From the NCBI GenBank assembly GCA_016868315.1, contig VGHE01000005.1, positions 1 through 64,000 on the forward strand: DNA of 64,000 bases. Direction: 5' to 3'. The notes beneath the pieces were generated by a model, which was not told the origin of the DNA, ran no database searches, and saw only the letters and a list, made by a program, of their open reading frames with translations. The translations under genes were made by a program, and so were the position numbers. Position 1 is the first letter of the stretch, and every line of letters begins with the position of its first letter. Below are positions 490 to 63,381 of this stretch, in pieces. Source of the DNA: Betaproteobacteria bacterium. Its GTDB lineage: Bacteria > Bdellovibrionota_B > Oligoflexia > Silvanigrellales > Silvanigrellaceae.

Positions 490-2013
490 ATGAGACTTTA
501 CATTTTGATTGTCCTCGCAGCCCTCTTCTACAGGACAGAGACCATGGCGATTGAAGAACCAAAGTTTACCGACAAAGTTGAGTATAAGGATTTTGAGATC
601 CGTTCGTACGCACCCATTCTTGCCGCGCAAACCGAAGTGAGCGAAAGCTTTGATGATGCAGGTAACAAGGCATTTCGAGTGCTTGCCGATTTTATTTTTG
701 GCAACAACACGAGCCAAACGAAAATCAATATGACGGCTCCTGTCGTGCAAAAACCAGCGGCCTCGGAAAAAATCGCGATGACCGCACCGGTCACGCAAAG
801 CAAGGGTAGCAAAGGCTACGTGATTCAATTTACGATGCCTGCAACATACACCCGCGACACCCTTCCCAAACCCAATGACCCGCGTGTTCAGATTGTTGAA
901 ATTCCCGCACGCCGCATGGCTGTTTATAGCTATTCGGGCTCGTGGTCGGAGAGCCGCTACAGCGAAAAACTTGCAACATTCCGAGCGGCCCTTGCGCGCG
1001 AGAAAATTGTCACCACCGGCGAGCCTACTTTCGCACGCTTTAATTCTCCCTGGCAGTTGCCGTTTTTTCGCCGCAACGAAATTTGGTTCGAGGTGGCAAA
1101 CTTAAAAACACAGCTCACACCTGAGCAGTACCGTTGCACGCAAGAGAAAGGCACCGAGAAGCCGTTTGCCAACGCTTACTGGAACCACAAAGAAGATGGC
1201 ATTTACGTCGATATTGTGAGCGGAGAACCGCTCTTTTCTTCGCGTGCGAAATTTGATTCCGGCAGCGGTTGGCCGAGCTTCACTGAGCCTCTCAACGCAG
1301 CAGCCGTGCGCACCTTCACCGACACGTCGCACGGCATGGTGCGGCTTGAAGTCCGTTCCAAACGCGCCAACTCACACCTCGGTCATGTGTTCGATGATGG
1401 CCCTGGCCCCACCCGCGCACGCTATTGCATCAACTCAGCCTCACTCCGCTTTGTTCCTCTGCTGGCGCTCAAACAAGAAGGCTTAGGAATGTATCTGTTC
1501 GACTTCGCCGAGAAGCTGAATCTGCAAGTTGCGACCCTTGCAGGAGGCTGCTTCTGGGGATTGGAAAAACTCTTAGGCGAAATTCCAGGCGTGTTTGAAA
1601 CCCGCGTCGGCTACAGCGGCGGGCTCGATTTGCAGGCTGGTTATAATGATGTGCGCACGGGCAAAACTGGACACGCCGAAACGGTGCAGGTGCTTTTTGA
1701 TCCTAAAAAAGTAAGCTACGAAAAACTCCTCAAAACTTTTTTTAGCATCCACGATCCCACCACAGTGAATCGGCAAGGCAACGACATTGGAACGCAATAC
1801 CGTTCGGTGGTTTTCTACCACTCACCCGAGCAAAGAAAGACCGCCGAAAAGGTGATCGCACAAGTGGACGCAGCAAAGAAATGGCCTGGCAAGGTGGTCA
1901 CACAGGTGGAGGGCTTTGCTGGCTTTGCGCTCGGCGAAGCCGAGCACCAGAAGTACCTGACGAAAAATCCAGATGGATATACGTGTCACTTCGATCGCAA
2001 GTTTGGCTTTTGA
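490..2013 (+). CDS. Exported SOUL heme-binding / MsrB / MsrA fusion (peptide methionine sulfoxide reductase)
   Basis: This 507-residue protein has three joined modules. Residues 1-20 are a signal peptide. Residues about 25-200 are a SOUL/HBP heme-binding-like domain ([16 protein letters not shown], a C-terminal RRNEIWFEV). Residues about 207-325 are MsrB, reducing methionine-R-sulfoxide, with catalytic Cys313 in RYCINSAS. Residues about 345-507 are MsrA, reducing the S-epimer, with catalytic Cys354 in GCFWG, then GYSGG, TGHAE and [10 protein letters not shown]. The MsrB belongs to the zinc-free type: the metal-binding CxxC pairs are replaced ([22 protein letters not shown]). It also lacks the usual resolving Cys of the SGCGWPSF motif (SGSGWPSF here). 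Cys216 (YRC) could act instead, which is inference. An exported Msr would repair oxidised envelope proteins. The gene converges on the giant gene with 3 bases between stop codons. The MsrB and MsrA calls are very secure, SOUL is secure, and heme binding is inferred. Confidence 0.93.
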
Positions 2014-2016
2014 GGG

Positions 2017-5000
2017 TTAGGGCATCCGCACTTGGAAGTTCACAGCACTTCCGACCGTCTGCTCATCCGGCACGTCTTTTGCCTGCACAGCCAAGATCGT
2101 GTGAATTGTATTTGTTGCCAGTGCTGCTCCGGTCGCGTTGGGTGTGAAGCAGATGGAATCACCTGGCTCAAAAAGGGTCGCGCCAGTGGTAATGGCGGAG
2201 CAAGCGGCTCCATTCTTGCTTATTGTAACGCTACCATTGGTTATCGTCACTGAGGTAATGAGGAATTTCATCCGATCGACAGGTGTTTCGTTCACATCAT
2301 GCGCATCCGCGTGCGAGCGGAACTGTGTATATGGGATCGAAACAGGAACATTCTCCGTCTTGGAGCCCAACAACACAGGCCCCATGTAGGAGAATGTTGG
2401 ATCTTTTCCAGATGGATTGGTGCTCTTCAACGAGACACGAATTGATTTATCCGTAGCCGCAACACTCGTACTGTCGATCGCGGCGAACCTAAAGAGTTCT
2501 GTAGGTGTATTCAACGCGATTCCACCGGAGCTAAACGACTGATATGTCACAGTCTCACCTGGCGCAATAATCATCGTCGACGATGGAACGTAATTGTTAT
2601 AGCTCTGGCCGAGAGTTCCAGCCCATGCCGCGAGGCTTGTGCTGTTCTTCGTAAAGGTACCATTGGTCGCGCTCACCAAGTTCGCATTGATGTTGGTTAT
2701 GACAAGTGACACAGCAGAAGAATCTGTGTCATAGGCGCCTGACAAATTCTTCAGCTCTTCGTACGTCCAAGTGATTGTTCCAGCGCTTTTCACCACATTG
2801 TATGTAGGCGCCGATTCCGGATAGTTTCCAAAGTAAGCGGGCACAGCATCTGTACCAACGCTGATGGAAACCGAAACACGCGCTTGTGTTGTGCCCACGG
2901 CGTTGTCGTTGTCCAACACCGAGAGGCGCAACGCTGCATAACTTCCAACCACACCCGATGGCTGCACCCAGCAGAAGCTTTGACCGTTGGTGATTGTGGT
3001 GCCCGATGGATAGAATTCCGCAGCAGCTGGAACTGTGGCACAACTTCCTGAGGTTTGGCGGTAAACAGACTGACCACCCAACAATTCCTCGATACGGAAT
3101 TTCAACAGTGAATCGCCGTTCTCAACATCTTCGGCATTGAGATTAGTTGCCAGAGATGAGTGCGTGATTTCAAAGAACTTCGCATTTGGATAGCGGGTTG
3201 CATTTGTATAAGTGTAGCTCGAGAGATTTGTTGGTGCCGTATTGTATGCTCCAACAATCACGCTCACCTGCACAGCCGAACTGTCTGTTGTCAGGTCGGT
3301 TGCTTTCACCATAAATGCATTCAAAGTACCAGCCGCATTGGCCTCAGGGCGCCAGACGAGCTCATCGCCAGGACCAACAACGGGTGGGGTTATAGCCGAG
3401 CCCGTCGTCAAGTAGGTAGTGCCTTTGTAGGTCACAGAACCCGAACTGACCTGCCAAATCTTAAACTTGATTGGATCATTCTCAGAGTCGCTCGCGCCCG
3501 AAAGTAAGAGGAGATTATCATATGTAATCAGCTGGGCTCCATTCTCGGAAATTCCTGGAGATACGGTGAAGCCAGACACTGAAGGCGCTGTGTTACCTGC
3601 CGTCACCTGGATGTTGATGTCGACAACCGTATTGGAGAAATCAGTACCGTCATACAAGCGCACTTTCATGATGGTATAGGTGCCCAAAGCATTCACCGGT
3701 GGAGTCCAGTTGAGTTGTGTCCAAGTGTTGGTGTTGTCAGCACCCGACTGCACCAAGTACTTCATTGTGGTTGGGTCGGTTGGCGTTGGGTTGATTGTTG
3801 TGCCTGTGTTGTTGACTGCACGGAGAGTTCCAGATGGAACACTCTCGATACGGAATTTGATTCCGTGAGCATCGTTGACTCCGGGTTTTACACTCGTATT
3901 GACGTCGTATTCGCGGAAGTCGATTGCGCCGAAGATATCGGCATAGGTCATCGATTTACCGCCGGCAACATTGCGTGCCACGCTTGTCAGAGTTCCGCTT
4001 GTTGAGATAGCAACGGGTGGAGTGTTGAGGGCAGAAACCGTTGCCTTCACGTCAATTTCACTGCTCGACGCTCCCTCGGCGTCAACCACTTTGAGCTTGA
4101 AGAGTTGGAACAGCGGAACGGTGTTGACGTTCACATGTGCAGGAGGTGTCCAAATCACTTGGTCACCAGGATACATCGTGTGAGGAGCAGTCACTGCTGT
4201 AGCGACACCATTCACATAACGCGTGAGAGTGGAGCCGGCAGTGATACCCGTGCTGACATCGGTAAGGCGATATCCAAGAATTCCTGTGGAATCATCCGCA
4301 CTGGGGAAGGTTGTAAAGAGTTTGTCGTAGGTGATTGTGTAGGGCGTATTTTCCGGGACCCCGGAGATGATATTGGTTGAACTGGTGAAAGTTGGATCTT
4401 TGTTGATGTAGACCTTTACCTGAATAGGTGTGGCACTGGCAGCTGAGCCATCCCACGCCACAACTGTAAATGCATTTTGCAGACCCGTAACTCCCGCGGG
4501 TGGTACCCACTTATAATTTGTGTTGCTGACGATATCTTCATCAACAGTAATCGCATCTGCAGCAGCAGTTGTGCCATCACATGTCGCAGCAGAATTGAGA
4601 CACAAATAAGAGCCGGCAGTGACACTCTTCACTCGGAATTGCAGTGTCTTATTCGCAATCACTTCTTCTGCATCGAATGCGTCTGTGCGCTCTGTTCCCT
4701 GAGACATCTGGCTTGGATTACCGCGCAAGCTGTCATAGCTGAAAGTAAATGCGGTATTCTTAGCCCCACCCGTGAAGTCTTTCACATAGGTGAGAACTGG
4801 AACCTGATTGAGTCCTGCCACAAATGTTGCTTGCAGGGTGACTTCATTTGCCGAGTAGGCGGTGCCATCCCAACCGCGCACGGTGGCAAGGGTCACGGCA
4901 GAACCTGTGGTTGTGCTGGTTGGGATGACAACCATACTCTCGCCCGGAACCAATTGCGACTCTGCCACAGGTGTGCCGAGGTTCGCACCGGCCATCGCGA

Positions 5001-8000
5001 CCATTGTTGTGCCACCCTTCTTGATGCTGCCATTGGAAATCGAGGTCAATACAAACGTCACATACGTACTGTCGGTATCTGCTGGACTGAGCAAGGTTTG
5101 CAAAGTTGTGTAGCTCACCGTGAATGGCAACCTCACACCATAAGTGCTGCCCAATGAAATAGGTGTGGTTGCGGTGATGGTTGGTGCCGCATTCGAGCCC
5201 GTATCGATGTTCATACGCACGAGGCCTTGTGTCGGCGAGGACACATTGTTGCCATCGATCACTGTGAAACGAATGGCATCGACAATTCCTGTTTGATTGC
5301 TTGCAGGCAACCACCAGATGCTCTTACCCGTGATGACCTGTTTGTTTGAAGTGCTGTTGTAGTCGGTGGCACCTGCAAAGTTTCCGCTCGTGCCAATCTT
5401 CAACGATTGCCCGTTCGCCAACGATTCCACCTGCAAGATGAGTGCACTGTCGGCAGTTTCGTTGCCGTCTGTTGCTCCCAAACCAGTGCGCAAATCTGCG
5501 AACGTGACTTCCTTCCAAGCATTGCGGGTCACACTTGTCACAGTGAATGACCCAACGATGGTTGGTGCCGCATTGACAGATGTGACTGTGGCTCGCACCG
5601 TCACAACTTGAGCGTTATCAGCAGTTCCATCGCTTGCCTTCACCGTAAAGGCTGTTTGTGGGGTTGTTGCATCATTCAGTGCAGGACTCCAAACCATACT
5701 CTCTCCGGCGCTGAGATAGGTTGGATCTGGCAGTGTGCTTGCAGAGGTATAGGGCACTCCGCCAATGGTGAGAGTACCGCTGCTCACAGCTATAACCTTA
5801 TATTTCACAACCTGGCCATCGGCATCGGTAGCAGGAGCTGCGCTATTCAATGCGCTGTAGCTAATCGGCAACGCACCACTCTCTGCTACCGCCGTTGCGA
5901 GCGTAACAATGTGAGACGCACTCGAAACGGTGGCAGACCATGTGGGTGCTGCGTTTGAACTGTTCACCGTTACAACAATGTCCCAAGCGGTGTTCGAGAA
6001 GTCGGTTCCATCGAATGGACGAACAGTCATCACCGTGAAGGTTCCTTCCCCATTCACTGGCGGTTCCCAATACACACTGGTCAATGGGTTTGTTTGGCTA
6101 CCAACAGTGTTCACAAGTGTGTACATATTCGCGGTTGTTGTGGGGTTGATTTGGCTTGCAGCATTGTTACTGCCTGCAAAGAGCTTGCCCGACGCCACTC
6201 GTTCAATGCGATATGAAATAGCGCCCGACGTCGGTGTCCCACCAGCAAAGTCGAGGTCACTGATCTTACCGGAGAACAATCCATTGATTGTGCTGTAGCT
6301 ATAGGTTTGTGCTGCATTCTTCGCAATGCTCGTGAGTGCAGAGGGTGCCGAGGTAACCACAGGGAGGTCGTTGACCGCGGTGATGATAATTTGAACCTGG
6401 GTTGCAGGATCCGCAGGGAATGCACCCAAATCATCAATTGGTTTCACCTTAAACGCTGACTTGGCTCCCACTTCATCCGCGGGCGGTGTCCATTCCAGAC
6501 GGTCTGTGATTCCAAGCTGAGTCACACCTGCGGTGACCAAGTTGCCATTCATGCGCAATGTGCCCGTGTCGACTGCAGTGATCAGATACTTCACAGGACC
6601 AGACTGGTCATCGCTGTAGGGATAGTTGGTTCGCAACGTATCCCAAGTGATTGCATAAGGAATATCTTCCACGGCACCGGTCAGCGGTGTTGTGCTTGTA
6701 ATGCTTGGTGTGAGGTTCGTTGCCTTCAACCAGACGTACACAGGGATGGTCGTGACACTTTCTGCCGCACCATCGTAAACCACAACATCGAATGCATTGG
6801 TTCGACCCACAGCATCTGTGGGTGGAACCCACTTCAAGCTTGTTCCGGATGCCAATTCATAACCCGCGGCAAGGTAATCACCAGCTACGTTACATGCTGC
6901 AGAGCTTAAACAAAGCTTCGCACTTGCATTGATAGCCTTGATGCGGAATTTGAGCGTCTTGTTCGCAATCACTTCCTCTGTATCGTACGCATCGCTGCGC
7001 TGTGTGCCGTTGCCAATGCTTGGGTTCCCGCGCAGATCGTCGTAGCTAAAAATGAAGTCTTGATTCTTCGTTCCTGTTGTAAAGTCACGCACATAGGTCA
7101 GCGCAGGCACTGCATTGGCCACTGTGAAGGTTGCTTTCACAGTCACTTCCTTCGCAGCGGGTGAGTAAATTTGGTCATCCCAAGCGCGGAATTTGAAGAG
7201 ATCCTGCAGACTATTCAAGGTGATTCCGACCGATGGATACACCGTGATTGTTTCATTCGGTGAAACGAGGTTTGTTGCGAGTGGTGTCGGCGATGTATCG
7301 CTGGTCACAGTGACTGCACTCAACGAGCTTGTGCCCTTGGTTATTGTGGTCCCATTACTCAACGCTGTGATGACAAATGAAATTGCATCACCATCGGAAT
7401 CTGTCGCATTCGCAGCTGTCTTCAACTGCTCATAGGTCACTTGGATAGGTAAGCCACGACCACGTGATCCCAAGTCAAAGGCATTGTTCGTCGCACTCAA
7501 TGCAGGGGGGCTGTTTGCACCCGTATCGATATTCATGCGCACGGTTGCTTCTGTGCTCGAACTTACGTTGCCAGTGTCGACAACAACCACCTTGAAGGCA
7601 TCCAAAATGACGCCGCTTTGATTCAACGGTGGGAGCCAGTAGATGCTCTGAGTGCTTGTCACAACCTTGTTAGACGATGGATTGTATGCATTTGCAGCTG
7701 CATAGTTGTTGGGAACCCCAATTCTGAGTTCTTGTCCGCTGATCTTACTTGTAATGTTGAATTTCAGGGTGTTCACATTGGTGTCCTCGAGGTCGCTGAT
7801 GGACAGCGCCGAGGCCAATGCAGAGAAGGTGATCTCTTTTGCCGTGTTGCGGGTGACACTCGAAATTGTTGTTGTAGAGTTGGCAATTGTTGGTGCATTA
7901 TTCACTGCAGTCACATTCACCAACACAGCCACGGCACCCGATTTTGCATTGGTATTCGGTGCAGAGAGGGAAAGCGGGTCAGCAGCCTTCACGGTAAATG

Positions 8001-11000
8001 CAGCTGTGCCATTTGCAGCGGTGTTGGCGACGGGTGTCCACACCAAGGATTGTCCAGGCGCCAACACAGGTTCAGAACCAGCTGAGATGCTTGTCACAGC
8101 AGCTGCACCATTCACAGAAACGGAACCCGACTCAATCGAAACAATCTGGTAACTGAGAGCATCGCCATCCAAATCAGTTGCATTGATTTGATTGTGCAGG
8201 TTCGCATAGCTGATGGGCAGCGGCGTGTTTTCCGCTGTGTTTGTTGCAAAGGTGATTGTGGTTGTTGCGCCCACCGATGGTGCTGCGTTCGATGCAGCTA
8301 CGGTGACGTAAACATCTGTTGTTGTCGCAGCATAGTCTGTTCCATCATAAGCCCGCACGGTCATCAACTTAAATGTTCCAGATTCATTCGGAGCAACCCA
8401 GTAAATAGACGAAATGTTGCTCGAAGCTCCTGAGGGAGATTGCATGAGAGTGAACATTGAACTCGTGTTGGCAGACGGATTAATGGCTGCACCACCTGAT
8501 GCACTTCCAGCCGTCAGAGTGCCAATGCCGCTGAACGATTCAATGCGGTAGCTGATCGTTCCAGCGGAGATAGGGCCCGTAATATCGGGATCAGTGAGTG
8601 TGAACAATCCATTGATCGTTGCATAGCTGAAGGCTGCCCCTGCCCGCTTAGCTGGGCCATTCAGTGCACCCGATATAGCCGTGATGGCTGGCTGATTATT
8701 CACTGCGGTTACTAGAACAGTTGCAATCGCTTCAGTTGTTTCCTGACCACTTTGGTCGCGACCGACAACCCTGAACGCTTCCAGTGAATTGTTTAAATAA
8801 GCTCCCGGCACCCACGTCAGCGTGTCGTTGATGCCGACCGTTGTTGTCGTGCCGGTGACCGCGCTATTCGAGTAATTCTTATAAAGCGTACCATTCGCAT
8901 GAACGCTGGTGATTCTGTACTCAATTGGTGCCACTTGATCATCGGTTACGGGGATGCGGCTGCGCAAAGTGTCGTAGCTGATGTTGTAAGGAACATCCTC
9001 GTAGGCGCCCGTGAAGGTTGTCACCGCGCCAAGCACAGGAGTTGCATTGGTGTTGGCAACTTGCACATACACATCAATCGAAGTTGCGCTCTCCTGATTC
9101 TTCGCGTCGAGAGCCACAATACTGAAGGCCTTCAGTCGGCCAGTGAGTCCAGCCGCAGGTTTCCAGTAGAAGCCCGAGTTTGCACCAGAAGGTTCAATGA
9201 GTTGATTTGCAGATAAGAACGAGCTGGTGCACGCTGCATTAGAGCTGGCACAGAGCTTTCCGTTCACGCTGACTATTGCTTTAACTTTGAATCTCAGACT
9301 TTGCGTTGGCAACAATTCTTCTGCATCGAACGCATCGGTGCGTGCAGGTGTTCCACCACTGCGTAGGTCAGAATAAGAGAACGCAAATGACGCGTCTTTC
9401 ACCGCGCCAGTGAAGTCACGCACATAAGTAAGCAGTGGGATGTTGTCATTCAAAGGATCCGTGAAGGATGCTTGGACGGAGCCTTTCTTGACGGTGTTAC
9501 CCGCAGTTTGATTGACGTTATAAAGCTCACTATCATACGCCCGCACTTCAATCAGAGTTGTATTGGTTGCACCCGAAGCAGCCGAAGGAATCACGACCAC
9601 CGATTCATCGGGAGCGATTGTATTCGCACTCGTTGGAACACCGGGATCTGCTCCAGAGAAGGACACCGCTGCCATGCTGGTACTGCCCTTCTTCACAACA
9701 GCGTTTGAAATCGAGGTGATGACAAAGCTGATGTAGGGGCTGTCGCTGTCTTGTGCGCTCAGCTGGTTTTGCAGTTGTTGATAGGTAACAGTAAACGGCG
9801 TCCCTTGTGCCATCGTTCCCTTGTTGAGAACCAAGGCGTTATCCGCCGCAGAAATTGTGGGTGACACATTGCTGCCGGTCACAGGAACGCTCACATTGGC
9901 GATGTTCGCGGTTGACAATCCACCACCATCCACAGCTGTAACACGGAAAGCCACAAAGGTGGCGTTGCTTTGGTTTGCAGGTGGCAACCACCAGATGCTT
10001 TGGGTGCTTGAAACCGTATTGTTGATAACACCACCAACAACGGTGTTGAGTGTGACTGCGGCAGCTTCATTTCCACTTGTGAGGCCAATCTTCAATTGCT
10101 GTCCACTCACAAGTTGCTCAACTCTAAATGTGACGGTGAGAGGAGTTTCTGCGTCGGCAACGCCCAGGCCTGTGATGAGGTCGGCGTGGTCGATCTTCTT
10201 CCATGCATTGCGTGTTGCGTTCGTTGCTGTGAAGGCAGAATTCATCGTTGGTGGCTGGTTGGGCGCAGTGATTGGCGTTACATCTGCTTTCACAGCCAAC
10301 GCCGAGCCCGCACTCACATCGGTGCCATCATACAATTTCACTTGGAATGCACTGAGAGCGCTTGCACCCGTGCCTGAGGTGTTTCCTGGCTTCCACGTCA
10401 GGTTTTGACCCGGACCAAATGTGAGAGCCAAGCCCGACCCTGAGTACGTTGTACCATTGAGGATGATCTGGCCGGTTGTCACTTCCGTAATACGGAAGCT
10501 AATGGTTTCTTCCTCAGCGTCTGTTGCATTGCTGAGGTTCTTCAGTGTGTCATACGTAATCGGCAGTGCACCATTTTGATTGGTTGCAGATGCGAGCTTC
10601 AACTCGGTCACACCTGCGCCCCAAGCTGGTGCCGTATTCGCACCTGTGACAGTGACGTTGATCTCACGGGTTGTCGCTGAGGAACCAGTGCCATCATACG
10701 CAGCAACCACAAACGCAGTGAATGTGCCTGTTGCGTTCTTGGGTGGCTCCCAGAACACTTGGGTTGAACTGCTGGTTCCGTTACCGCCAGCATCCACAAG
10801 GACTGGAATACTCGCAGCCATGGTTGCCGAACTGGTATAATTCGGGAGAATTTGCGCTGCAGAATTATTGGCGCCCAGGTACAGCTTACCAGACGGAACA
10901 CCCACAATACGGAAGCTCACCTGATTTACGTTACTCAATTCACCGGTTGATGTGTCGACATCGAAGTCCTTCGCAACCACGAGACCAGTGCCATTGAGCT

Positions 11001-14000
11001 TGAAGACGTCGGCGAATGAGATGAGTTTGCCCACGTTCTTCGATGTGGTCGGAGTTGCTCCAGATCCTGCACTCAATGTTGGCAAATTGTTTACCGGAGC
11101 AACAATGACCTGCACTGTCTTCGTTTCAGTCACGACGCCTGAGCCATTCTTGCTGGTTGCTCCCGAACCATCGACGAGTGCAACTGTAAACGCATTAATC
11201 GTTCCGCTCGTCAGTGCATTTGGAACCCAGGTCAATACATCGCCGGGATTTACGGTTGGATATGGCGCTGTCAATGCACCCACATACTCTGTCGCGCCTT
11301 TGTACAATCTACCGTTCGCGGCTACCGAGCGGATCTGATATGTCAGCGGTGTCGCTTGATCATCCAAGCCTGGATAATTCGAAGCGAGCAACGCATAGCT
11401 GATATTGTAAGGAACGTCTTCCGAAGCTCCTGGCAGAGCTGTTCCAGCGCTCGAGAATTCAGGTTCACGAGTCACATTGACGTGAACTGTGATTGTAGTT
11501 CCGCTGGTGGCACCAAGGGCATCGACAGCTTCCACTGTGAATGCGCTCAAGCGACCCGAAGCCGATGCAACAGGAGTCCACTTCCAGCTTTCATTGGCTG
11601 CCAACTCGGCGTAAGCATTGCCCACAATAATCGATTGAGTTGCACCCGTGACGTCTTCGAGCACACCGCTGCTAATCGCGGTAACCTTGAATTTTAACGT
11701 TTTGCTCACTGCCGGAGATTCTTCTGGGTCGAGGGCGTCGGTGCGTTGGCTGCCATCTTTGATGCTCGGATTACCGCGGAAGTCGTCGTAGGTGAAGGTC
11801 AGCGATCCACCCTTCGCCACGCCTGAGAAATCTTTCACGTAGGTGAGAACAGGGGCTTGGTTCACCACTGTTAAATTAACTTTTACGGTTCCTGTGTTCG
11901 TTGAATATTTCTCGCCATCCCAGGCTTGAACCACGAGAGTGGTCTGCAATCCGGTGAGTCCCACGGCTGGGAAGATGACAATAGATTCGTTCGGTGCAAT
12001 CACCGCATTGGCGTTAGGCGCGAGATTTGTGGTTGTGTCAAACGACGCCATCGACTGTGAACCTTTCTTCACAGTACCGTTTGAGATCTCTTTGAGGACG
12101 AAATTGACAATCGTGCTATCGGAGTCTGTGAGAACGAACGACTGAGCAAGTTGGCTATAGCTAATAGTGACAGGCACATCCTGAGGAGAGTTCGCCAGAG
12201 TCATCACGCGCGATCCCGCATCGGCAGTAAACGCTGTGTTGCTCACAGTCGCACCCGTCAGAACAGGAGCAGCGCTTGAGGGTTCCAGATAGACACGAAT
12301 TTCTTTCGTTCCGACAGAGCCACCGCCATCCGCGTCGAAGACACGTATGGTCATCACTGTCATGGTGCCGGTGCGATTGTTGCCAGGCTTCCAGAAGACT
12401 TCTGTCAGTGTTGTGCTTCCATCTGCACTTGCGCTCACAAGCGATGGCATTGTTGAGAGATCCGCCGTATTCGGGGCAATAACAGCGCCATTCTCAGTGG
12501 TTCCCTTGTAAAGGGTGCCCTCTCCCAGACTTTCAATGCGATAACGCAAGCTCGAGGATGCTGTTTCAGCACCATCAGTACCGAGGCTCGAAAGGTCAGA
12601 GAATTTGAGCTGGAATCCAGTATTCTTCGCCAGTGCGGTGCCGCCCGCTGTAACGAGCGCCCCGCTGCCGTTGGTTCCAACAAATGTGGTCGCTGCCGCG
12701 GATACGAACGTGGGTAGATCGTTGACCGCATCCACAACCATCGACACCTGTTGCTGGCCTCCGTCCACAGCTTCATTGCCACTCTTGAGACCCGCAGTAT
12801 CTATGAGACGAATCTTAAACGCATTGATAGTCCCTGCCTGGTTGGCAGGTGGAATCCACGTCAGCGTCTCACCCGGCACAAGGGTTGCGGGTGAAGTGGT
12901 TGTGAGACCATTCAGCTGATTGGCTCCTTTAAACAAGGTACCAGTGGTAATGTTTGTGATTTGATATGTGAGTGGTGTGAGTTGGTCATCCTGACCCTGG
13001 TAATTCGCAGCCAATGCGCTGTATGAGATAACTACAGGCACATCTTCCTTCACAGCCGTAAAGGGAGTAACAGTAGTGAAGCTTGGCGCAGCATTTACCG
13101 GCGAGACAACGAACTTCACTTGAATTGCGTTTTCGCTCAGTGCTGCAGGCGTTGCGGTATCAACCGCACGCACACTGAAGCCCACCAAAGTACCCACCTG
13201 CCCGGCGGTTGGTTTCCAGCGGAATGTTTCACCGGGTTGGAGAGTGTATTCAGAAGCATCCGGCTCGCTACCACTGAGCTGTGTTTCAACACCACTCACC
13301 ACCTTAAACAGTTGACCGCTGAGAATGCTCGTGACTCGGAAGCCAACATTCGCAGAATCTTCAGCATCGAATGCATCGGTGCGCTGGCTGCCGTCGGTGA
13401 TTGCTGGATCACCGCGGAACTGACTGTAGGTGAAATCAACAGAACCGCCCGCCGCAATTCCGGTGAAGGGCTTCACGTAGGTCAAGAGCGGAACTTGGTT
13501 TTGTGCAATCAGGTTGACCTGAACAATTCCCAGGCCAGTTGTTCCATCTGAATATTTCTCGCCGTCGAACACGCGCACGCGGAAGAGCTCTGTGTTGTTG
13601 CCGGAAACAGCAGCTGCAGGAATGACAACAATCGATTCCGTATCGCCAATCACCGCTGTGTTCACAGGCGTGGTGCCTTCCGTTGCTATGGTTGCAGCAA
13701 GCTGCAGCGTGCCCTTTCTCAACGTTGCATTGGCTGTTGAAATATTGGTGATAACCAAAGGCAGGTAAGTGCCATCGGCATCCCGTGCATCGAATCCAGT
13801 TGCAGAGGCGAGATCGGAGTAGGTGATGATGAAGGGCACGCCTTGCGGCTTACTGCCGATATTCAAGGTCTTGTTGTTCGCACCAAGCGCCGTGTTGTTA
13901 ATTATTGGAGCCGCATTCGAACCAGTGACCGTCACTTGCACAAGGCCAACAGTGGCGCTTGAAAGGTTTGCTGTATCCACAGCTGTCACACGGAAAGCAT

Positions 14001-41000: not shown

Positions 41001-44000
41001 AGGCACGCACTTGGAAGAGTTCGCGCAAACCATTCACATTGAGTTTTGGTTGAACCGTGATGGTCTCTCCGGGGGCAATCAATACAGTTGGGATTGCCGT
41101 CACCGTATCCAGAACACCTGCATTACAATCGTTACTCGCGTTTTGCGGCTGAAGTACGAGTGCGCCCTTGCGAATGCTCTCAACCGCAATCACATTATTT
41201 GCGCCAGCAGTAGGGTTCTGCACACCTGTGATGTTTGCACAGCTAATAACAAACTGCACCAAGCTGCTATCGGCGTCGCTCGGATTGAAGGCTGTTTTTA
41301 GGTCATCGTAAGAAATTTGGAACGCAGTGTTTTCGCGTGCTGGATTTGTTGCTGTTCCGAGTAACTTTTTCGTTGCGGCAGTCAAAACAGGGCGCTCAGT
41401 GCTGTTGTAAACTTTAATGTTTACTGCACCCAGGTTTGCACTTGTCGTCAGCTCAGAATCGATTGCGCTGACCCGGAACGCCTGAAAGGTACCGACTGTG
41501 TTTGCAGGCGGCATCCAGAAAAGATACTGATTTTGATTTACCACCCGAATGCTGTTGTTCAGTAACGTTGCGGCCGTTGGGCTCGTCGTGCTGCCAACCT
41601 TGACCCACTGCCCAGAAAGAACATCTTCAACACGCAGCTTCATTGCGGTGTATTTAGTAATATCAGCAGTTTCGTTATCCTCAAGGTCACGCACATCGAG
41701 TTGTTTCATCAGGTCTTTGACTTGGATCATAAAGACAGCGTTGCGTGCCACCGCGCCGGCGGGTGCCGGATTAGGTGGATTATAGAACGGTGTCTCAAAA
41801 GTATAATTCTGTGCAAGAGTCGGCGGCTGATTCACTGGCGTGATTTTCACGCTGACAGCTGCTTTTACGAGAGAACTTTCAATGCCGTCGAACGCACGGA
41901 ATTCAAATGCCAATGGAGTTCCTTTTGCATCAGCTCCGCTCGCATCTGGCCGCCAACTAAAACGCTCGCCCGGGCCAACCACTGGCGCAGGATTCAAGTC
42001 GCCTGCAGCATCGGGTGAATCTTTTGTGTATGAGATGTTGTTGATCGTCAGTGTACCGCTGCGAACCTTTGTGAACCTAAACGACACGGCTGTTTGATCG
42101 GGGTCAGACGCGCCTGTCTGTGCCAAAAGCGTATCGTATGAAACATACATCGACGAGTTTTGGTAGGTGCCGGTCGTACCCGCATCCACACCGAGTGTCA
42201 CGAGGCGATCTGTCGCAGGTGAGGCCGAGGCTGCGATCACAGGCTTAGCATTGCTGCCCGTGACATTCACGCGCACCACTGCAGTTGAAACGCTGAAGTC
42301 AATGCCGTCGTAAACGCGCACAACCATCACAGGCATTTCACCAATCGCGTTGAGTGGCGGTACCCAGGTCAGTTTCTCGCCCTCGTTGTCTGCAGGGTTT
42401 GCCCTCGATTGAAAGATAAAGGCACGCTTTGGAACCAACCCACCGACGCTGTTTGGGTCCAGAGGTAGGCTGTTGACATCAACACCGTTGAGGAAAAGCT
42501 GGCCGGACTCAACCGATTCAACCCGGAACGAGAGTGCGCTGATGTTCGCTGCATCAACGTCAACATTATTCAGGATGGAATCCAAGAGAACGCTTCTCAT
42601 GTGTTCCCAAGAGATCTCATAGGCTGGTGATGTCTGGTTCTGCGCAGCATTGCTGCCCAACTTCGCAGACGCCACTTTGAACTTAGGCTGGTCGTTAACG
42701 CTTATAATATTCACGCTTGCTGTTCGGGCTATCTGAGCACCATTCGTACCAGCAGCGTCCACATGCTTATACGAGAAAATCGATTGCACTCCGTTGATGT
42801 TCAACGAAGGCCGATAGGTTAAAAATTGGCCAGGCTCAAGGAACACACCCGTATTGATATCACTTGTTGTGAGCTTGATCGCACCCTTCCAAATTTCGCC
42901 CGCGCTTCCCAAACTCTCAATCTTGAAGCGAATAGGCTCTGCCTCAACGTCACTTGCAGGGTCAGAAGCAAACATCATGTCATAACTAATCACATATGGC
43001 AGGTCTTCCATGGGGGAACCAATGGACACCGGCGTCGTATTTGTTGCAACAGGCACATCGTTCGTGGGCCTCACGTTGACAACCAACGGCAATGAGACTG
43101 CGCTCTCTCCGCATTGGTCATCTACCGCAATAATTCGGAACGCTTCGAGCTTCCCGAATTGGTTTTGAGCTGGTGTCCATGTGATGGAATCGCCATTGGG
43201 GGTGTTCGTATCACCGGGATAGAGGAACTGGTTGCGGGTTTCACCGCACGGTACGGTGCCCACCGTCATGTTTGCATTGAACACGTAGCTCTGTGTTCCC
43301 GCGCTCTGCGAGACAATTTTGAAGCGCACCTTTTGAGTGCCTTGGCCACTCTCAACATCTGAAAGGTCTGTAAGCGAGAGCAGCTTGGCATAGGTGATTG
43401 TCAGCGGCGCGTCTTCATCGGTTGCATATGAGCCAGTTGTTGCACCTTCCAGAGTGTTGATGCGAGTCAACACAGGGATGGTGTTCACCGGCGTGAAAAT
43501 AGCGCTAATCGTTGCCGATTCATGGGTCTGAGGTGTTCCCAAGGGGTTGGCTGTCGTGACCGAAGTCGGCGCCGCAGTTTGTGAATAAAATTCTCCATCC
43601 CACGCGCGCACCGTGAAAATCGGCAACGTCCCGTTGAGATTCGCTGTTGGAACAAAGGTCACCGATTCATTGGGCGAAACGAGCGCCTGAGATATGGGTG
43701 CTCCTGAGCCTGCATCGGGCACAATGGTCTGAGTACCCTTGCGCAGGGTGCCGTTGCTGACCGAGGAAACTACAAATGAGAACCACACGTCGCTATCGCG
43801 ATCGGATACTCCCAGCGCTGCTTTGATTTGATCATAAGAGATCGTTAGGCCTTCGTTTTCAGCCTTCGTAGCCGCAGTCCATGTTGGCACGGTAATCATT
43901 GGCCGATACTTGCTGTTGTCCACATCAACTTGAACCAATGCCGTGGTCTGGCTCGAGCGCGCTACTCCAGCACTATCGGTTCCATTGTCGATGGCAGTCA

Positions 44001-47000
44001 CAACAAATGCGTCGAAACGACCGGTTACATTGTTCGGAGGTTTCCAAAACAACCTTTTGCCTGGGCCGAGAATATTGGTGGTGGGATCATTTGTGTTAAC
44101 AGAAATCGAAGTTGCGCTAGCCCATGTCGATGTGGAATTGCCAATCTTCATGCCCAGACCACCGCGAATCTGGCTGATCTGGATCTTCATATTTGCGTAA
44201 TTACCGGCAACAGCAACATCTTCGTTGTCTTTAATATCAAGCGCGGCAGCCAAATCCTCAAAACTGACAAAGTAATCGGGCTCATTGTTTGAGTTCGAAT
44301 TGCGCTGTGCCACTTTGCTTGCTTCGGTAGCGAACGAACTCGAGACTACGGATGTTTTGAGTGTTGGAGGAAGATTCACGCCCGCCACGGAAATCGCAAC
44401 TGTTCCCTTGGCGGCCACGTCCGAATAACCCGCACCGTCGTAGATTCGGAAATTAAACACATTGATGGTGCCCTTCGAATCCGCTTCTGCGAGCGAAGCC
44501 GAGGGAATGACCGTGAGAGTTTCGCCTGGTGCCAAGACTGACACTGCGGGTGCGCTTGCAGGTGATGCATTTGTGTCAGCATCCACAAACGCGCTCAACG
44601 CAACAGAGCCTTTTTGAAGTGTCCAGCCTGTTGTGATGTTGGTTATAACTACAGCGCGCCAGTCGCTATCCGTGTCTGCAACATTGTAGTGCGTTTTCAT
44701 GTCATCATAGCTGATTGTAAACGGTGCATACTGCAAAGCCGCGGGAACAATCGGAAGCGGGTTTGCGTTCGTGGCCATCGTCGGAAGCTTATTAGACCCC
44801 GTCACAACCACCCGCACAAGCGCTGAGTTGGCGCTTGCCAAGTTACCGCTGTCGATCATCGTTACCGTGAAGGCATCAAAGGTTCCAACGCCGTTTCTGA
44901 TTGGGCTCCAGTACAGGTTCTCGCCCGCCTTGAGCTCGTTGTTGTTTGCCGAGAAATCGACCGCAGTGCCAGACGCAGCGCCAATTTTCAATTCCTGGCC
45001 AGAGAGCCTATTGTCTATACGGAATTTCACATTCGCTGTGTTGTTTTGATCTTCAACATCGGTAAATCCGAGCTTAGTGATAAGGGTTGAAAAGGGAATC
45101 TCGAACTGTTTGTTGCGCTCGTTGAAGTTGCCAGCTGCAGCCAAACCATCCGCACCTGCACTCAACGTTGTGCTTGCGTTGATTTTGGGTGCTTGGTTCA
45201 CACGGTCAATCCAGATCCTGACAGTTGCAACGGGTGATGTACTGAGCCCCGCAACTGGTAGAGTGGCACTCGCATCGGCAGCGTTGTCGGTGGCAACAAC
45301 CTTAAATGCAGCGCGTGGTGCGGCAGGGTTTGTGAGTTCGCTGTGAGTTTCGCTCCTTGGCTTCCATATGAAGCGCTCACCGGGTCCAACAACCGGGACA
45401 GGGTTTGTAACGACTGTACCGTTTGTTGAACTGATAAATGTGATGGCCGAATTGCTCACCTCGAATGTGTTGTTGCCAACAGTCAATGTTCCTTCTGTCA
45501 ACTCGGTGAAACGGAAATAAACAGGCTGGTCATCCGGATCCACCGCACCCAGCGCGGAAACCAAAGCTGAATGCTCGATGTAGGTCGGAACATTCTGTTT
45601 GGTCAGCCCTGCTCCTTGCGTGCCCAGGGAAACTCCTCCCGCAGACAGCACACCGGCACTGAAGGTGGGCTTTTGATTGTTGCCTGTAATGCTCACAACC
45701 ACAGGCACGGCTTGCGCGCTATATGCCTCTGGGTTTTGTGCATCCACAACGCGCACGAGCATCACCGTGAATTCACCGAGCGCGTTGCGCGGTGGCTCCC
45801 AGCGGAGGATATCCGAAGTGGAATCGAGGCTGTCGGTATTTGCCGAAATCACGCGTGGCCGCGTCGTCTGGTCGGCCGCATTCGGGCTGTTCGAAGCACT
45901 CCCCATCCGAACGACGCCTGCATTCACATTCTCAATAATATACTGAATTGTATCTGTGTTTGTTGTTTCGACGTCTGCAACCGGTATTGCCGCCTTCAGA
46001 TCCGAATATTTAAATATGAAGGCCGTATTCTGAGCTGCATCTTTCCAGCTGCTTGAGCCGGTATCGAAGGCTTGCAGCTGATATTTTGCTTTGGGCGTAA
46101 TCATTGGCGAATCATTCACCGCTGCAACTATCACATCCACATTCTTGCTCACGCTCAGATTATTTCCTGCGTTCGAGGAGTCTTTGATTTGCAGTGTAAA
46201 CGCTGCGGATTGCAACGCGTTGGCATTCAGCGCTGGCGTCCACTCAAATGTTTCGCCCGGGAGGAGTTCGAGAGCGGTGCCAGGATTATAGGTCACAGCA
46301 CCTTTTTTGAAGACGGCGCAATTCGAGCTACACGCGGGTACATTGATGCGATATGCAAGAGCTCCAGGCTCTTTTGAAGAATCAAAACCTGCCGCATTCG
46401 GTTCATCCGAAAGCATCTTATAACTGATAATGAACGGAGTGTCCTCAACTGCGCCACTGAACAGAGCCGTGTTCGCATTGGAGAATTGTGGTTGATCGTT
46501 GACAGAATTCACTGTCACTTGCACTGGGAGTTCTGTGACACTCTCGCCACCTTCGCTATCACGCGCAACAATTGTGAAAGCTGTTAAGACGCCGTTGGCG
46601 TCAGTATCGGGTGTCCAGCAGTAGTCGTTGGAAACACTTGCAGTCGCGATAATGTCTTCCACAAAACTCGCCGAATAGTTCGCAGCTGTACATGCTAAAG
46701 CAGGGTCAATCTTCTTCTTCAGCGAACCACTCACAACACTCTTGACGCGGAACACCAGTGTTTGTGTTCCCTGCCCGACCTCAATATCCGATTCATCTGT
46801 TAGTGCGGCGAGTTTTTCGTAATCAAACACCAATGGAACATCTTCACTGATTGCATCCCCACCCTTAAATTCGGGAATCTGACTCATCAGGGGAACCTGA
46901 TTGACAGGTGCTAAGCTCAGCCGAACTGTCGCTTCACCAATCGAGTAGCCACGGCTTCCTGAAATAATGCCATCGCCACTGTCCACCGTGCCATCGAAAG

Positions 47001-50000
47001 CACGGACTTTGAACATAACCGGTGCACCGTTGGTATTATTTAGGTTCGCATTGGGCATAAAGACAAGAGTCTCGTTCTCACCCACTCGCGAGGCTGCAGG
47101 TGCTTCAGTTGTCGTTCCCGTGAAAGGAGTCACCGTCGAGCCATTCTTTTTCAAAGTTCCGTTTTGCACATCGACATCGGTGATGACAAACCAAGTTGTG
47201 TCGCTGTCTGGGTCGAGCGCAAGAGCAGTTTCATTTTTCAGTGTTGCCCACGTCACCAAATACGGTTCGTTTTCCTTCGCACCGTTGGCGCTGCCCAACG
47301 TGATATCGGTGATTCCAAGAACAGGTCGAACATTAAAGCCCGTGACATCGAAGCGATAAAGCCCCGTGCTCGCACTGTAGAGAGCATTTGTGGGGTTGTT
47401 GAGAACATTTCCGCTTCCATCGGTTGCCACCACGCCTGAACGGTCGCGCGCCGAAGCACGGAAACCAGCAACAACGCCGGTGAAGTTGCGGGGCGGAGTC
47501 CAGAAGAGATATTCACCTGGTGCCAATGGGACTCCATTGCCTATTTCGCTCGCTCCTACACCCGATTGATTTGTTCCCTTTCTCAAGGAACCAGCGACGA
47601 TCTCTTCAACTCTGAATCGAATGTTCGCATATTTAATCGCAGGGTCACTCGATGTTGTGATGACATCCTGCGGATCGGGATCCGTCACGTCGAGATGCTG
47701 TGCTAACTCATAGAATGAAACGGCAAGTTCGGTGTTTCTTGTGGCTGCGCGAGGCGCTGTATTTTGCGCGAGCAGCGCAGGTGGCTGATTGACCGGCGAC
47801 ACATTAACTTTGACTTCGCAGTTGCTCGATGCTCCCTGGTTGTCATACGCACGAATCACAATTGCATCACGTGCCTGTGCGCCTGTACCAAACACCTGTG
47901 CAGGTGGTGTCCAGACAATTCTCTCGCCTGGGCTCACGAGCAAAGGCGAGCCATACTGCTGCGCCGTGCTATAGGTTGTGTTTCCGACTTTCAGTGAACC
48001 GGCTTTTAACTCAACGATCTGGAAGTAGAGCGGAGTTTCATCTTGGTCTGCTGCACCAGATGCTGCAAGGAGCGTATCATAGCTGACTTCCAGTGGAACA
48101 TTCTGGGTGGTGCCGACGGTCGCAGGTTCAACACCCAAGGTGATATTCGCCTTGATGGTTGGCGGGTAGTTCGACCCTGCGACATTGATTTTAACATCGC
48201 GCGTGGTTGCGGTGAGGTCACCATTTTTGTCGCGCGCGCGCAGGGTCATAATCGTGTAATCGCCGGTCGCATTTTTGGGCGGCGTCCAGTTGAGTTCGGT
48301 GACGTTGTTGCCATTCGAATTTGCCGACAACAAAACGGCTTTGTTCGGTGCCGCAATCAAAGTGACATCGTCCCCATTGGCCGCGCTGCCCAGCACCAAC
48401 TTTCCTGAGTTTACACTCTCAATCACATATTCGATTTCGTTTTGCGTGTTTTCAACATCCGTCACAGGCAAAATCGCTGCAATCTGCGCGAAGGTAATCA
48501 CTCTTGCTTCATTCTTATTCGCACCACCGATGAGGAGACCAGAAGAGGCATTAGGAAGCACAGCCGTGGGCGCAGCATTTGTGAAGCGTGGTTGATCAGG
48601 AACCGCATCGACCTGAGCCTGAACGACCTGCGACGCAACACTTTCGCGCGGCGTTTGGTTTGTGTCCCGCAACTTCACGGTAAAGACGTTGAGCAGACCA
48701 TTTGCCGTGAAATTCTGATTTTCCGGTGGCGTCCAGGTGACACGCTCCCCTGGAAAGATGAACACGGGCGGAATAACAACATCATTGCCCTTCTTCACGC
48801 TTCCGGCCACGTTGACAGCCGTGATCACATAGGTCAGGGTTTCACCCGATTCAACGTCCGTTCCGGGATAAGAATTCTTCAAAGCTTCATAGCTGATCAC
48901 GTGCGGAATATCTTCACGGGCGCCTGTCAGGTAACCTACGTTCGGTGCAACAACAGCGGCAAATTCGGGAGCGTTGTTGAATGATGCCGTCTCAATATAG
49001 ACAGGTATGGGCTGGTCGCTTTCTCCACCATCCACATCCAAAGCAACGATGCTAAAGGCATTGAGAAGACCATTGGCATTGAGAGCTGGTCTCCAGCTCA
49101 AGCCGGTTCCGGTTGTACCATCGCCATTGCTCAATGTATCTGAGGGCGTGATCTCAGCACCAGCCACAAGCTCTGTTGAACCACGGAAAAGCTTACCGCT
49201 GTTGATACTGACCACTTTAAATTTAAGCGTTGGGGTATTTACAGGCTCTTCCAAATCATATTCATCGGTCGCTTTGCTGCGCAGGTTCAAGTAATTGAAT
49301 GGGTAGTTTTCGTTCTGATTTGCACCTTCCAGCTTTGAAATAGCAGTCAGCCTTGGACGCTGGTTCACGCGCTCGAGCTTAATTGTAATGGTCGCCTGTT
49401 TGGTGTTGTCTGAGGCAACTTGGCCATCCCAAGCCAGCACTGTAAAAATTGGAATGTTGTTGTTTCCAGCGTTCACACTGTTTAAGAACTGCGTCGGGAT
49501 GTAGGTTAAGGTTTCATTCAGGTTAAATAAGTTTACTGTAGGATTAACATTCTGAATTGTTGGGTCAGCCACAGGCAACAGCTTCTTCGCTCCGACCTTC
49601 AATTCACCGTTCGATATAGAGGTAATCACCAACGAAGCCACGGCATCATCATCGTCGAGAACCCCAAGCCCTGTAATCGCGGCAGAAAGATCGGCAAAGG
49701 TGATCTGGAACGGCTGGTCTTGCTTACCCGTATCAAAGTGTTTGGAGAAGCTTGTAAGGCGCGGAGCGATATTGCTCCCAGACACAGTCACCTGAACTGT
49801 GCCGAGCGCAGAACTGGGGCGGTTGTTACTATCCACAACTCGCGCGCTGAATGCAGCAAAAGTGAGGACACCATTGTAGGGCGGCTTCCAATAGATCGCC
49901 TCCCCCTGATTCAAAGTGGTGTCTGTAGGCTGCTGCACTGCTTCGGGGTCAGCGCCTCGGGTTAGAATCTTGAGATACTGTCCACTGAGCTGGTTAATCT

Positions 50001-53000
50001 CAAATTTCACAGCGCTATACTTGTCTGCAGATGTATCACTCGGGTTGATATCTTCAACATCGCCCACATTCAGAGCCGCTGCCAGTTCATCAAATGTAAT
50101 TTCGTAAACTTGATTGCGCAGTGCATCAGCGAAAAGTGCCGTGTTGTTCGAAGTTGGAGCTTGGTTTACGGGTGTTACATTAACTTTCACCAAGGTCTTC
50201 GGGTTTCGCGTTGAGACGTCAATGTTGTCGTAGGCCTCGATTCTAAACGCGCTCAATGCAGCACCATCTACGCCACGCGCCTCCTGTGCTGGAGTCCAAG
50301 TCACCTTTTCTCCCGGACCAATCTTTGGAAGCTCAGCCAATGCTCCCGCTGTGTTGAAAATCTGGTTTCCAACACGCAGGGTACCGCTCTCAAGGTGAGT
50401 AAAGCGGAAATAGATTGTCGTGAGGTCGGTATCTGAAGCTTGAGACTTCTGAAGAAGAGTCTCATAGGAAATAGTCATAGGCGTGTTCTGATACGTTCCC
50501 TCACCCGGAGACGCACTGCTTCCCAGAGTAAAATCTGCATTAATTTGTGGAACGGCGTTGGAACCATTCACACGTATTTTCAGTTCAATGGGCTGCGCCG
50601 AGAAGTCGATTCCATCGTAAGCGCGCAGCGTCATGACCGTGAAGTTCTGTTCTGCAGCGTTTTGAGGTGGAGTCCAAATTAATTCCTTTGCAAGGATTGA
50701 ACCATCGCGGGTGCCATCTGTCGCAGCAATAAATGGCTTTGTGGTGAGCGTGGATGCATCTTTATCATCGGCATTTGGAATAACAAGTGTCAGCGTTCCC
50801 GAGCCAACACTCTCAATCCGATACTCCATCGCATTTGCCGCAGTCTCGTCGCTGAGCAGTGGCACTTTTTGAACAATATCTGCAAAACTTATGGGGAAGT
50901 TTGTATTCTTCTGTGCATTATTCATCCACACAGGAGAAGCAACATTGAATACAGGTACGTCGTTAATGGGAGCAACCAAGACCTGTACGGGTATTGCCAC
51001 AGGGCTATCGACCACTCCATCGTTCACAAGGGCATTGAACGCCGTTAGTGTGCCATGTACGTTCGTGGGAGGAGTCCAAGTCCAGCTTTCACCTGGCAAT
51101 AGCAGAGCCTCTGGTGTGTTTGGCTGAACTTGGATGCCGTTGCGCTTGAGAACACCTACACCTGCAGATTCAAATTTGAATCTCAATAGGTTGCCGTCTG
51201 CATCTGTGGGAGCACCCGCAGAGAAGAGCGCATCGTAGCGAATAACAAATGCTTCATCTTCTAGTGCGCCAGGAAGCACATCAATAACTCTCTGGTTACC
51301 AGCAACCTTCCCAAGCACTGGCACATCATTCACTGCATCCACATTCACTGTCACGGGCACCGAAACAGGGCTTAAACCCTTGATTGTGTCGCCATCGAAC
51401 GCCCGAACAGCAAAGGCTCGCAGTGAACCGTAGCTATGAAGCGGAGCCATCCAGCGCCATGAAGCGGTACCACCCGAACAGGATCCTAAAATATCGCCCT
51501 GCCCGCTCGTGACTTCCTTCCAAACTCCCGCATCCTGATACTGGAGTGAACCAGTTTTCAAAGTCGGGTCAAACTTGAAGCAGATGGTATCGTTGTCGAG
51601 GTCTGTTGCCTGTGTCGCTGCCATGAGTTTCGCAACTGTGACCTCGTAAAATTCATCTTCACGAGCGAAGTCGGTTTGAACCGCAGGAGCAATCACGGCG
51701 ATAGGAAGAATCGGAGTGTTGTTGATAGTTGGTGGTCTGTTGCGGCGCTCGAGGTTAACCCGAATTTTGATTTTCCCGAGCTTGTTCGTATTAGCGTTGT
51801 CTTCGCTGTAGGCGTTGCCATCGAAAGCGCGCACTTCAAACGCATCGCTTCCATCCGATGGATCTGCATCAAATTTATTTGTAGGTGGATTCCACAGCAA
51901 TGTTTCGCCCGGGCCGAACAAAATTGGTGAGCTCACAAGATTGGTTCCCTTGTAGAGCGTACCGGTCAGAGCAGCCGAAACCTCAAAACGAATTGTGCTG
52001 TTCTCAGCATCTACAGCGCCAGTGTTGGTGAGAAGCTGTGAGTATGTGATTGTGTATGGCAGATCCTGCTGACCACCAGTCAAAGGTGCGGGCGTATTGG
52101 AAGCGAATGTGGGCGCCGAGTTGAACCCGCTCACATTGAACCGGAGAACAGCGGTACCGACACTCGCAAGCCCTTGGTTGTCGATTGCACGCAGCCTTAC
52201 GCCATTTGAAAAAGTGCTAGCGTTGGCATCGAAGTAGTCGAGCGGAGGTGTCCAAACTAGCTTTTCGCACAGACCAATTGTGCCACCAGGTGCCAAAGAA
52301 ACAGCCGCACCCGCTGCATCGAGTTTACTCACGGAACCACGAAGAACATCAACCAACTCAAAAGTGGCATTGGGGGCAGCTGGGCATCCCGTCACGTTGT
52401 TTGCAGCAATCTGCACGTTTTCAACATCTGCGTACCCCAGCAGGGAAGCGATTTCATTGTGAGGCACTGCAGTTGCAGAGTTCTTGGCCACACCGCCTCG
52501 GTCTGCAACCAAAGCAATTGAAGGCGCATCATTCACCGCTGCAATATTCACTTCAACTTGCGCTGCGGCTGAACTCTCAAGCGCGCCGTCGTATGCCCAC
52601 ACAGACACTGCAACGAGGTTGCCGTTCACGTGTTGTGGCGCCTGCCAGACCAGCGACTCACCAGGAAGCAAACGAACCTTGCTCCCGAGTGCAACCAGAT
52701 TTCCGTTTTTGCGCAAGGTTCCCACAGCCGCACCGTTGCCATCGGCAACCGGAGCAACCTGGAAATCCAGAGAAGCAGTGTCAACATCGCTTGTGTAGCT
52801 GTTGTCGACCATCAATGCCTTACGAAGGGCATCGAAGGTCAGCACGAATGGAACGTCTTCCTGTGCGCCAGTCAATCGGTAATTTGCAGCAGGTTCTCCT
52901 GCGGGTAGAGCCAAAACAGGCGCATCATTAACAGCAGCTAACTGCAGAACCACGGGTGCGCTCGCTGCACTTAGCAAACCACCCAGAGCATTTTCATCGC

Positions 53001-63350: not shown

Positions 63351-63381
63351 GAGTTCGTCTCCGCTGGGAAGACCAACAGTC

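Follow-up and report, generated by a model that had tools for sequence, protein, structure and literature searches.

Bacterial cadherin-like or tandem-95 repeat proteins (NF012211, Cadherin_4, Cadherin_5, Big_9) are the closest described relatives of the giant protein considered here, and both this domain family and giant size are already known kinds (PMC11573180). The protein is encoded at 2017..56502 on the reverse strand of a 64,000-nucleotide stretch of DNA (positions 1 to 64,000 of contig VGHE01000005.1, assembly GCA_016868315.1; hereafter the window) from a freshwater Silvanigrella relative (Bdellovibrionota, Oligoflexia) with a genome of 3.24 Mb in 27 contigs. Its single open reading frame (ORF) of 54.5 kb has no internal stop and specifies 18161 amino acids (aa), with a predicted mass of ~1.9 MDa and isoelectric point of 4.7. 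The protein shares the VNDxP junction and the ED, DxD, WTP, and DG motifs with tandem-95 proteins, but the domains of the modelled cycle of its six-domain repeat (the hexad) fall short of the family cut-off, and five of the six joints have lost the ND/ED pair. No described member of the tandem-95 family with a six-type super-repeat was found.

Four other systems are comparable in design. The A-band super-repeats of titin (7- and 11-domain) are tandem β-sandwiches in which similarity follows position and not adjacency (PMC10665226); titin, however, is a muscle protein with a mixture of Ig and Fn3 domains for which no sequence relation to the array was found, and its register is thought to reflect the periodicity of the thick filament, whereas the array has no known partner. 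RTX adhesins (MpIBP, MhLap, and SiiE) also have a very long tandem β-sandwich extender at the Gram-negative surface, made rigid by calcium in the linkers (PMC7493085), but the array lacks RTX nonapeptides, has a lipoprotein N-terminus, and shows calcium motifs at a minority of its joints. Non-classical cadherins (protocadherin-15, cadherin-23, and CELSR1) come closest to the hexad model in structure and have mixed linkers; the calcium-free EC9-10 joint of protocadherin-15 bends and may give elasticity (PMC5120219). Such joints are the exception in these cadherins, while the array would have them as the rule, with a calcium joint once per cycle. GhpA, the grappling hook protein of the predator Aureispira, is likewise a giant bacterial surface protein of tandem β-sandwich domains (at least ~5000 aa, from the residue ranges of its entries), but the array gives no evidence for hook formation or predation. 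A limited set of literature searches returned no account of this protein or of any bacterial six-domain super-repeat, an absence that is not proof; as far as this literature shows, a six-type super-repeat with a type-coded joint is undescribed in bacteria. The usual reading of giant bacterial repeat proteins is that a single domain was copied over and over; here there is a hierarchy of domain, cycle, and array.

Six domain types in a recurring order

Downstream of an N-terminal helical region, the protein consists of 133 contiguous cadherin-like domains of ~134 aa (D1-D133) up to the C-terminus. They were delimited by a self-trained hidden Markov model (HMM), for which the training segments were cut by regular expression, and all domain pairs were then compared. 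For D13-D133, the mean domain-pair score at each lag was set against 2000 shuffles of the order. The score at lag 6 was 154 vs. 78 in the shuffled order (z = +21) and that at lag 12 was 126 (z = +13); lags 1, 3, and 5 gave 59-61 (z about -5), and lags 2 and 4 gave 80-82, near or slightly above expectation. The best match of every typed domain fell within its own type (119/119), a result that is partly built in because the types came from clustering; the ordering is independent evidence, and 117 of the 118 successions obey the grammar A-B-C-D-E-F-(A or E). As in titin, domains at the same position are more alike than neighbours.

The maximum-likelihood tree recovered six clades with SH-aLRT (Shimodaira-Hasegawa-like approximate likelihood ratio test) supports of 98, 97, 93, 82, 79, and 72-86. 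Four of them are pure for typed domains, and the remaining two include just one and three divergent domains. Identity is 32-36% within a type and 21-26% between types. A sequence-only reading of the window had proposed the recurring A-B-C-D-E-F order, and the order is real and far beyond chance; the six clades that it predicted are present in the tree, and neighbouring domains do not group together, the odd lags below six lying five standard deviations under expectation. The junction motifs that it assigned to the types hold as majority rules, not as strict ones: C begins with xVND in 79%, E with VNQ in about 67-70%, and F with GSN in most cases, while the start of B is variable. The even types B, D, and F are nearer to one another (scores 69-93) and C groups with E with support, but a strict dyad ancestry for all six types was not upheld, as the tree leaves A and B unplaced.

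The ordered part starts at D13 (window ~50970), and about 120 domains stand in six-type order. D1-D12 (50971..55518, reverse strand as for all domains) are cadherin-like/tandem-95 domains that lie outside the hexad order; D12 is B-like, but D11 falls outside the A clade. Tree and typing place an incomplete first cycle, C-D-E-F, at D13-D16 (49372..50970). Typing then gives cycle 1 (D17-D22, 46909..49371) as ABCDEF, cycle 2 (D23-D30, 43492..46908) with one additional EF, cycle 3 (D31-D40, 39298..43491) with two, cycle 4 (D41-D46, 36802..39297) as ABCDEF, and cycles 5 (D47-D54, 33538..36801) and 6 (D55-D62, 30304..33537) again with one additional EF each. Cycles 7-13 (D63-D104, 13507..30303) are seven regular ABCDEF cycles with A starts at 30303, 27879, 25434, 23034, 20754, 18381, and 15903. 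Cycle 14 (D105-D108, 11869..13506) is ABCF, with D and E missing, and its counterpart in the congener G002 is a full ABCDEF. Cycles 15-17 (D109-D126, 4816..11868; A starts at 11868, 9453, and 7122) are regular, and cycle 18 (D127-D133, 2020..4815) comprises ABCDE and, by tree and typing, two divergent terminal F-like domains (D132 and D133).

The period of 2.28-2.50 kb given by the sequence-only reading is kept in 12 of the 17 full cycles (2280-2496 bp) and fails in the other five (1638, 3234, 3264, 3417, and 4194 bp). The numbers of domains per A-started cycle are 6, 8, 10, 6, 8, 8, 6, 6, 6, 6, 6, 6, 6, 4, 6, 6, and 6, every value being even (12 cycles with six domains, three with eight, one with ten, and one with four). 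Surplus domains are always E-F pairs, and the four-domain cycle lacks D-E.

Cycle orthology in a second species

Among 58 genomes of the phylum searched, the hexad is confined to the genus of the window, with weak single-domain matches in two others. G002 carries ~167 domains on four contigs with the identical grammar (168 segments, as a frame break splits one B domain). A third genome of the genus, G001, contributes the N-terminus and 13 domains at a contig end, the hexads being outside the comparison. D1-D13 of the window are one-to-one reciprocal best hits with G002, and the first three cycle lengths (6, 8, and 10) are the same in both.

In a tree of concatenated A-B-C-D blocks, the G002 cycles (g2) adjoin the window cycles (win) in collinear order. 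One-to-one pairs with starred support are win07-g2_08, win10-g2_11, win11-g2_12, win12-g2_13, win13-g2_14, and win18-g2_23; win15-g2_16 and win01-g2_01 pair with weaker support. Three tandem co-orthologs in G002 correspond to win17, win16 groups with three (one inner branch has low support), and win04-06 correspond to g2_04-07; these surplus partners explain why G002 has 23 cycles and the window 18. The D121-D126 cycle has three tandem counterparts in G002 that are 64-66% identical to it and 68-71% identical among themselves, and the cycles flanking it match G002 one to one (63 and 51%). Because neighbouring window cycles in this part share only about 40% identity, less than the cross-species counterparts do, the cycles are older than the species split. 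We take the hexad to be a real unit of amplification and of orthology that predates this split, and the five surplus cycles would fit whole-cycle tandem copies, either gained in G002 or lost in the window lineage. With two related genomes, the copy-number history is readable cycle by cycle.

The sequence-only reading had an ancestral six-domain block amplified while each position kept its identity, and too long ago for a recent simple duplication. Cycle orthology and the tandem whole-cycle copies in G002 bear out the first part, with the amendment that, beside the change in whole-cycle copies, two-domain units were also gained and lost (extra E-F and lost D-E). The second part agrees with cycle orthologs in another species, and a recent simple duplication was rejected, as the DNA of the gene has almost no self-similarity of >70% over 150 bp. 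The best-conserved hexads relative to G002 lie at D115-D128 (many domains at 60-74%), and the middle cycles are near 40-50%. The G002 gene (L103, L105, and L106) shows four reading-frame changes inside contigs, which are due to sequencing error or real breakage.

Joint chemistry and the proposed fibre

The D1-D12 region scores 55 bits with Cadherin_4 (cut-off 25.1) and 48.6 bits with Cadherin_5 (cut-off 26.5), and 63.3 bits with NF012211, below its cut-off of 90; these domains mostly carry the ancestral motifs of the family. A hexad query reached 15.1 bits, below cut-off, and Cadherin_4 matches at E < 0.1 were obtained for 7 of 12 hexads, the best having an E of 3e-8. The AlphaFold2 (AF2) model of cycle 11 (18382-20754; 12 window sequences) has six β-sandwich domains with a predicted local distance difference test score (pLDDT) of 84. 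Its best structural neighbours (VIA-align) are cadherin-23, CELSR1, and protocadherin-15 (Z of 8-9, maximum 9.1), and its Foldseek matches include titin Ig tandems and GhpA. No solved relative was significant by sequence beyond a weak cadherin match (E of 0.013). Judging from profile scores above the Pfam cut-offs (D1-D12) and the tandem β-sandwich fold, the protein is a member of the bacterial cadherin-like/tandem-95 proteins.

The N-terminus begins with a lipoprotein signal peptide (aa 1-22, 56437..56502, reverse strand), read from the sequence with the lipobox Cys last (LYFG|CEES). The Cys-Glu-Glu-Ser is kept in G001 and G002, the lipobox Cys thus being present in three species. The protein is predicted to be an outer-membrane-type lipoprotein, the lipobox pointing to lipid anchoring. 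The Ala-rich region that follows (aa 23-328, 55519..56436, reverse strand) is helical by AF2 (two sequences; ~12 helices, with pLDDT of 70-88 across much of aa 31-320). A fold assignment for it was dropped, as the mean pLDDT of the whole model is 59 and the best Foldseek matches are mostly designed helical repeats. Purifying selection is indicated by the 54-kb frame kept open and by the nonsynonymous rate (dN) of 0.14 vs. a synonymous rate (dS) of ~1.9 in the N-terminus; dS is saturated in the domains. An RTX adhesin was rejected (GGxGxDxxx repeats had no match in 18161 aa), as was sortase anchoring (LPxTG was not found in the protein).

The calcium site of cadherins is assembled from a Glu at the base of domain n, the motif in the linker, and DXD in domain n+1, and the canonical set comprises the Glu base, DRE, DXNDN, DXD, and XDX top (PMC5120219; PMC5115871). 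When all 301 domain segments were aligned, the site of the family ED (position 20-21) proved to be type-coded: B has E (97%) and D (92%), C has K (81%) and N (86%), E has R (90%) and N (98%), D has Q/E-N, F has Q-N/G, A has K/Q-N/D, and D1-D12 have mainly ED. The Glu is replaced by Lys, Arg, or Gln in most hexad types other than B, and conservation of the type-specific residues is 70-98% over the 18-23 diverged cycles of the two species. In a weak profile match to CELSR1, the ED of the array aligns with the base Glu and the junction Asn with the linker.

If the joint is cadherin-like, Glu20 would be expected to covary with the Asp of the following junction and not of the preceding one, and it does. 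Glu20 of domain n occurred with Asp in the n/n+1 junction at 22 joints, and Asp without Glu at two (Fisher p = 3.5e-12); the wrong-side control, with Asp of the preceding junction, gave an odds ratio of 0.9. When shuffled inside junction classes, the association kept p = 0.00015 in the window and 0.00035 in G002, which are not independent, and the wrong-side control was flat. Over both genomes, the Glu and Asp pair is present at 31/40 B/C joints vs. 6/224 other hexad joints, and Glu, ND, and DXD are complete at 29/40 B/C joints and at 12/23 D1-D12 joints, and rarely elsewhere. The AVNDAPT junction of D88/D89 (19945..19965, reverse strand), in which D88 has the paired ED, is representative of these putative calcium joints. 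By sequence, 19 of the 132 window joints have Glu, Asp, and DxD, unlike the RTX type, with its motif in essentially all linkers. We infer one putative calcium-type joint per cycle within the hexad, mainly B/C. The claim that each of the six types does something different stands insofar as the types differ in conserved residues and only B/C routinely keeps the Glu/Asp pair; it does not extend to ligand binding by any type.

Lys20 of A co-occurs with a further Asp that lies in the B-domain DxD loop (6/6 in the window and 10/10 in G002), which would fit a salt bridge replacing calcium, although the pairing comes in runs of adjacent cycles and may stem from a small number of events. Over cycles 1-18, position 20 of A changes in blocks along the array: Glu is present in cycles 2, 3, 5, and 6, Gln occupies the position in cycles 7-10, and from cycle 11 on it is mostly Lys. 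The change is matched by one to DD in the DxD loop of the following B domain. The array offers a natural series in which to ask how losing one calcium ligand remodels a joint. The protein has only 46 Cys, and a Cys-x4-Cys (ACDATxC and variants) is found in the same loop of the C-type domains D65, D71, D77, and D89, possibly a type-specific disulfide.

We consider it fairly probable that the protein is a long extracellular extender fibre built on a giant outer-membrane-type lipoprotein, grown by cycles, with one calcium-type joint in six. It would be surface-exposed, to judge from the habits of the family. Growth of the array would have involved recombination between cycles in register and followed a stage at which there were fewer types; type identity would be set chiefly by contact with fixed neighbours, giving a chain of unlike joints. 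D1-D12 would be of the ancestral type, with about half of the joints keeping the cadherin-like set of base Glu, junction Asp, and DxD. In every six domains, calcium would stiffen one joint and the other five would be independent of it, which would make a periodic mechanical pattern along the fibre. Cadherin and Ig domains are about 4-4.5 nm long each, and the contour length of 133 domains would be ~0.5-0.6 μm. More tentatively, a titin-type hierarchical design can be suggested, in which the mechanics of a giant surface fibre are written in a six-letter domain order, one joint per cycle being calcium-locked and the Glu mostly replaced (Lys, Arg, or Gln) at the other five, and in which the order is kept across species by in-register whole-cycle duplication; we regard this as possible but doubtful.

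Several points weigh against the calcium-jointed surface fibre. A blind scan of 432,651 residue pairs across junctions puts Glu20-Asp in fifth place, not first, and the junctions share ancestry (cycles and two species), which makes the p-values optimistic. Of the five canonical cadherin motifs, the array shows just the Glu at the base, an incomplete ND linker, and DxD; a DRE-like acidic motif was not recognised, the first D and last N of DXNDN are absent, and DxD occurs in all types and hence has no discriminating power. The predicted template modelling score of the hexad model (0.36) makes its domain angles untrustworthy. No surface-export signal or secretion genes were recognised within the window. 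In G002 the gene lies on four contigs and has frame breaks; the order of the contigs was inferred, and no overlapping ends that would prove it were found.

The six types may alternatively be a relic of growth, in which a hexad block that arose by chance was amplified and the differences between types reflect descent, without a role for each position. The low same-type identity (just 32-36%), the tolerated gains and losses of two-domain units, and the fact that unequal crossing-over between cycles preserves the register automatically all speak for it. However, type residues are held at 70-98% across 18-23 cycles in two species (ED of B and RN of E, at one position), and covariation across joints points to a position-specific constraint, so that we find this explanation rather unlikely. 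A titin- or nebulin-like ruler, each position having its own binding site and a periodic partner, which might be an S-layer, a polysaccharide, or another fibre, docking once per ~25 nm, would agree with the preservation of six types and with the logic of the titin A-band, where equal super-repeat positions are more alike than neighbours (PMC10665226). We judge it unlikely: no partner is known, the strongest type-specific signals analysed are at positions expected near joints (20-21, 3, and 39-42), and an exact pitch would be lost at the cycles that have 4, 8, and 10 domains. It is quite improbable that the lipoprotein runs along the cell on the inner face of the outer membrane as a periplasmic cable (an envelope spacer or length scaffold), as the N-terminal lipobox and the lack of recognised export signal or secretion genes in the window would allow, since giant cadherin-like repeats are typically surface proteins (PMC11573180) and an acidic half-micrometre fibre in the periplasm would be unusual. 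Why super-repeats exist has been asked mainly for titin and nebulin, and the array offers an independent test.

Neighbouring genes and other giant frames

A neighbouring aldehyde dehydrogenase is 84% identical to its counterpart in a metagenome-assembled genome of an uncultured Silvanigrella, which is the basis for placing the organism near that genus. The ORF at 445-2013 (forward strand), in which a SOUL haem-binding domain is fused to MsrB (SelR) and MsrA (PMSR), runs convergently towards the giant gene, the two ORFs lying 3 bases apart. On the reverse strand, 58916-60723 holds two adjacent small secreted or lipoprotein-like genes without family match, the upstream one having a CBM_14-like stretch below cut-off, and 61500-63434 encodes an aspartase/fumarase-type lyase that carries a cyclic-nucleotide-binding domain at its N-terminus, an unusual fusion. 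A second giant frame of the cadherin/Big_9 type (3660 aa) lies at 1-10984 of locus L110 on contig 14 of G000 and is open at the contig start; it contains two copies of a 3022-bp segment, 4503 bp apart and 99.7% identical, which would be either a very recent duplication or an assembly effect. A further Big_9-type protein of ~2450 aa is encoded in the same genome, on contig 1 (L111:3377-10738, reverse strand).

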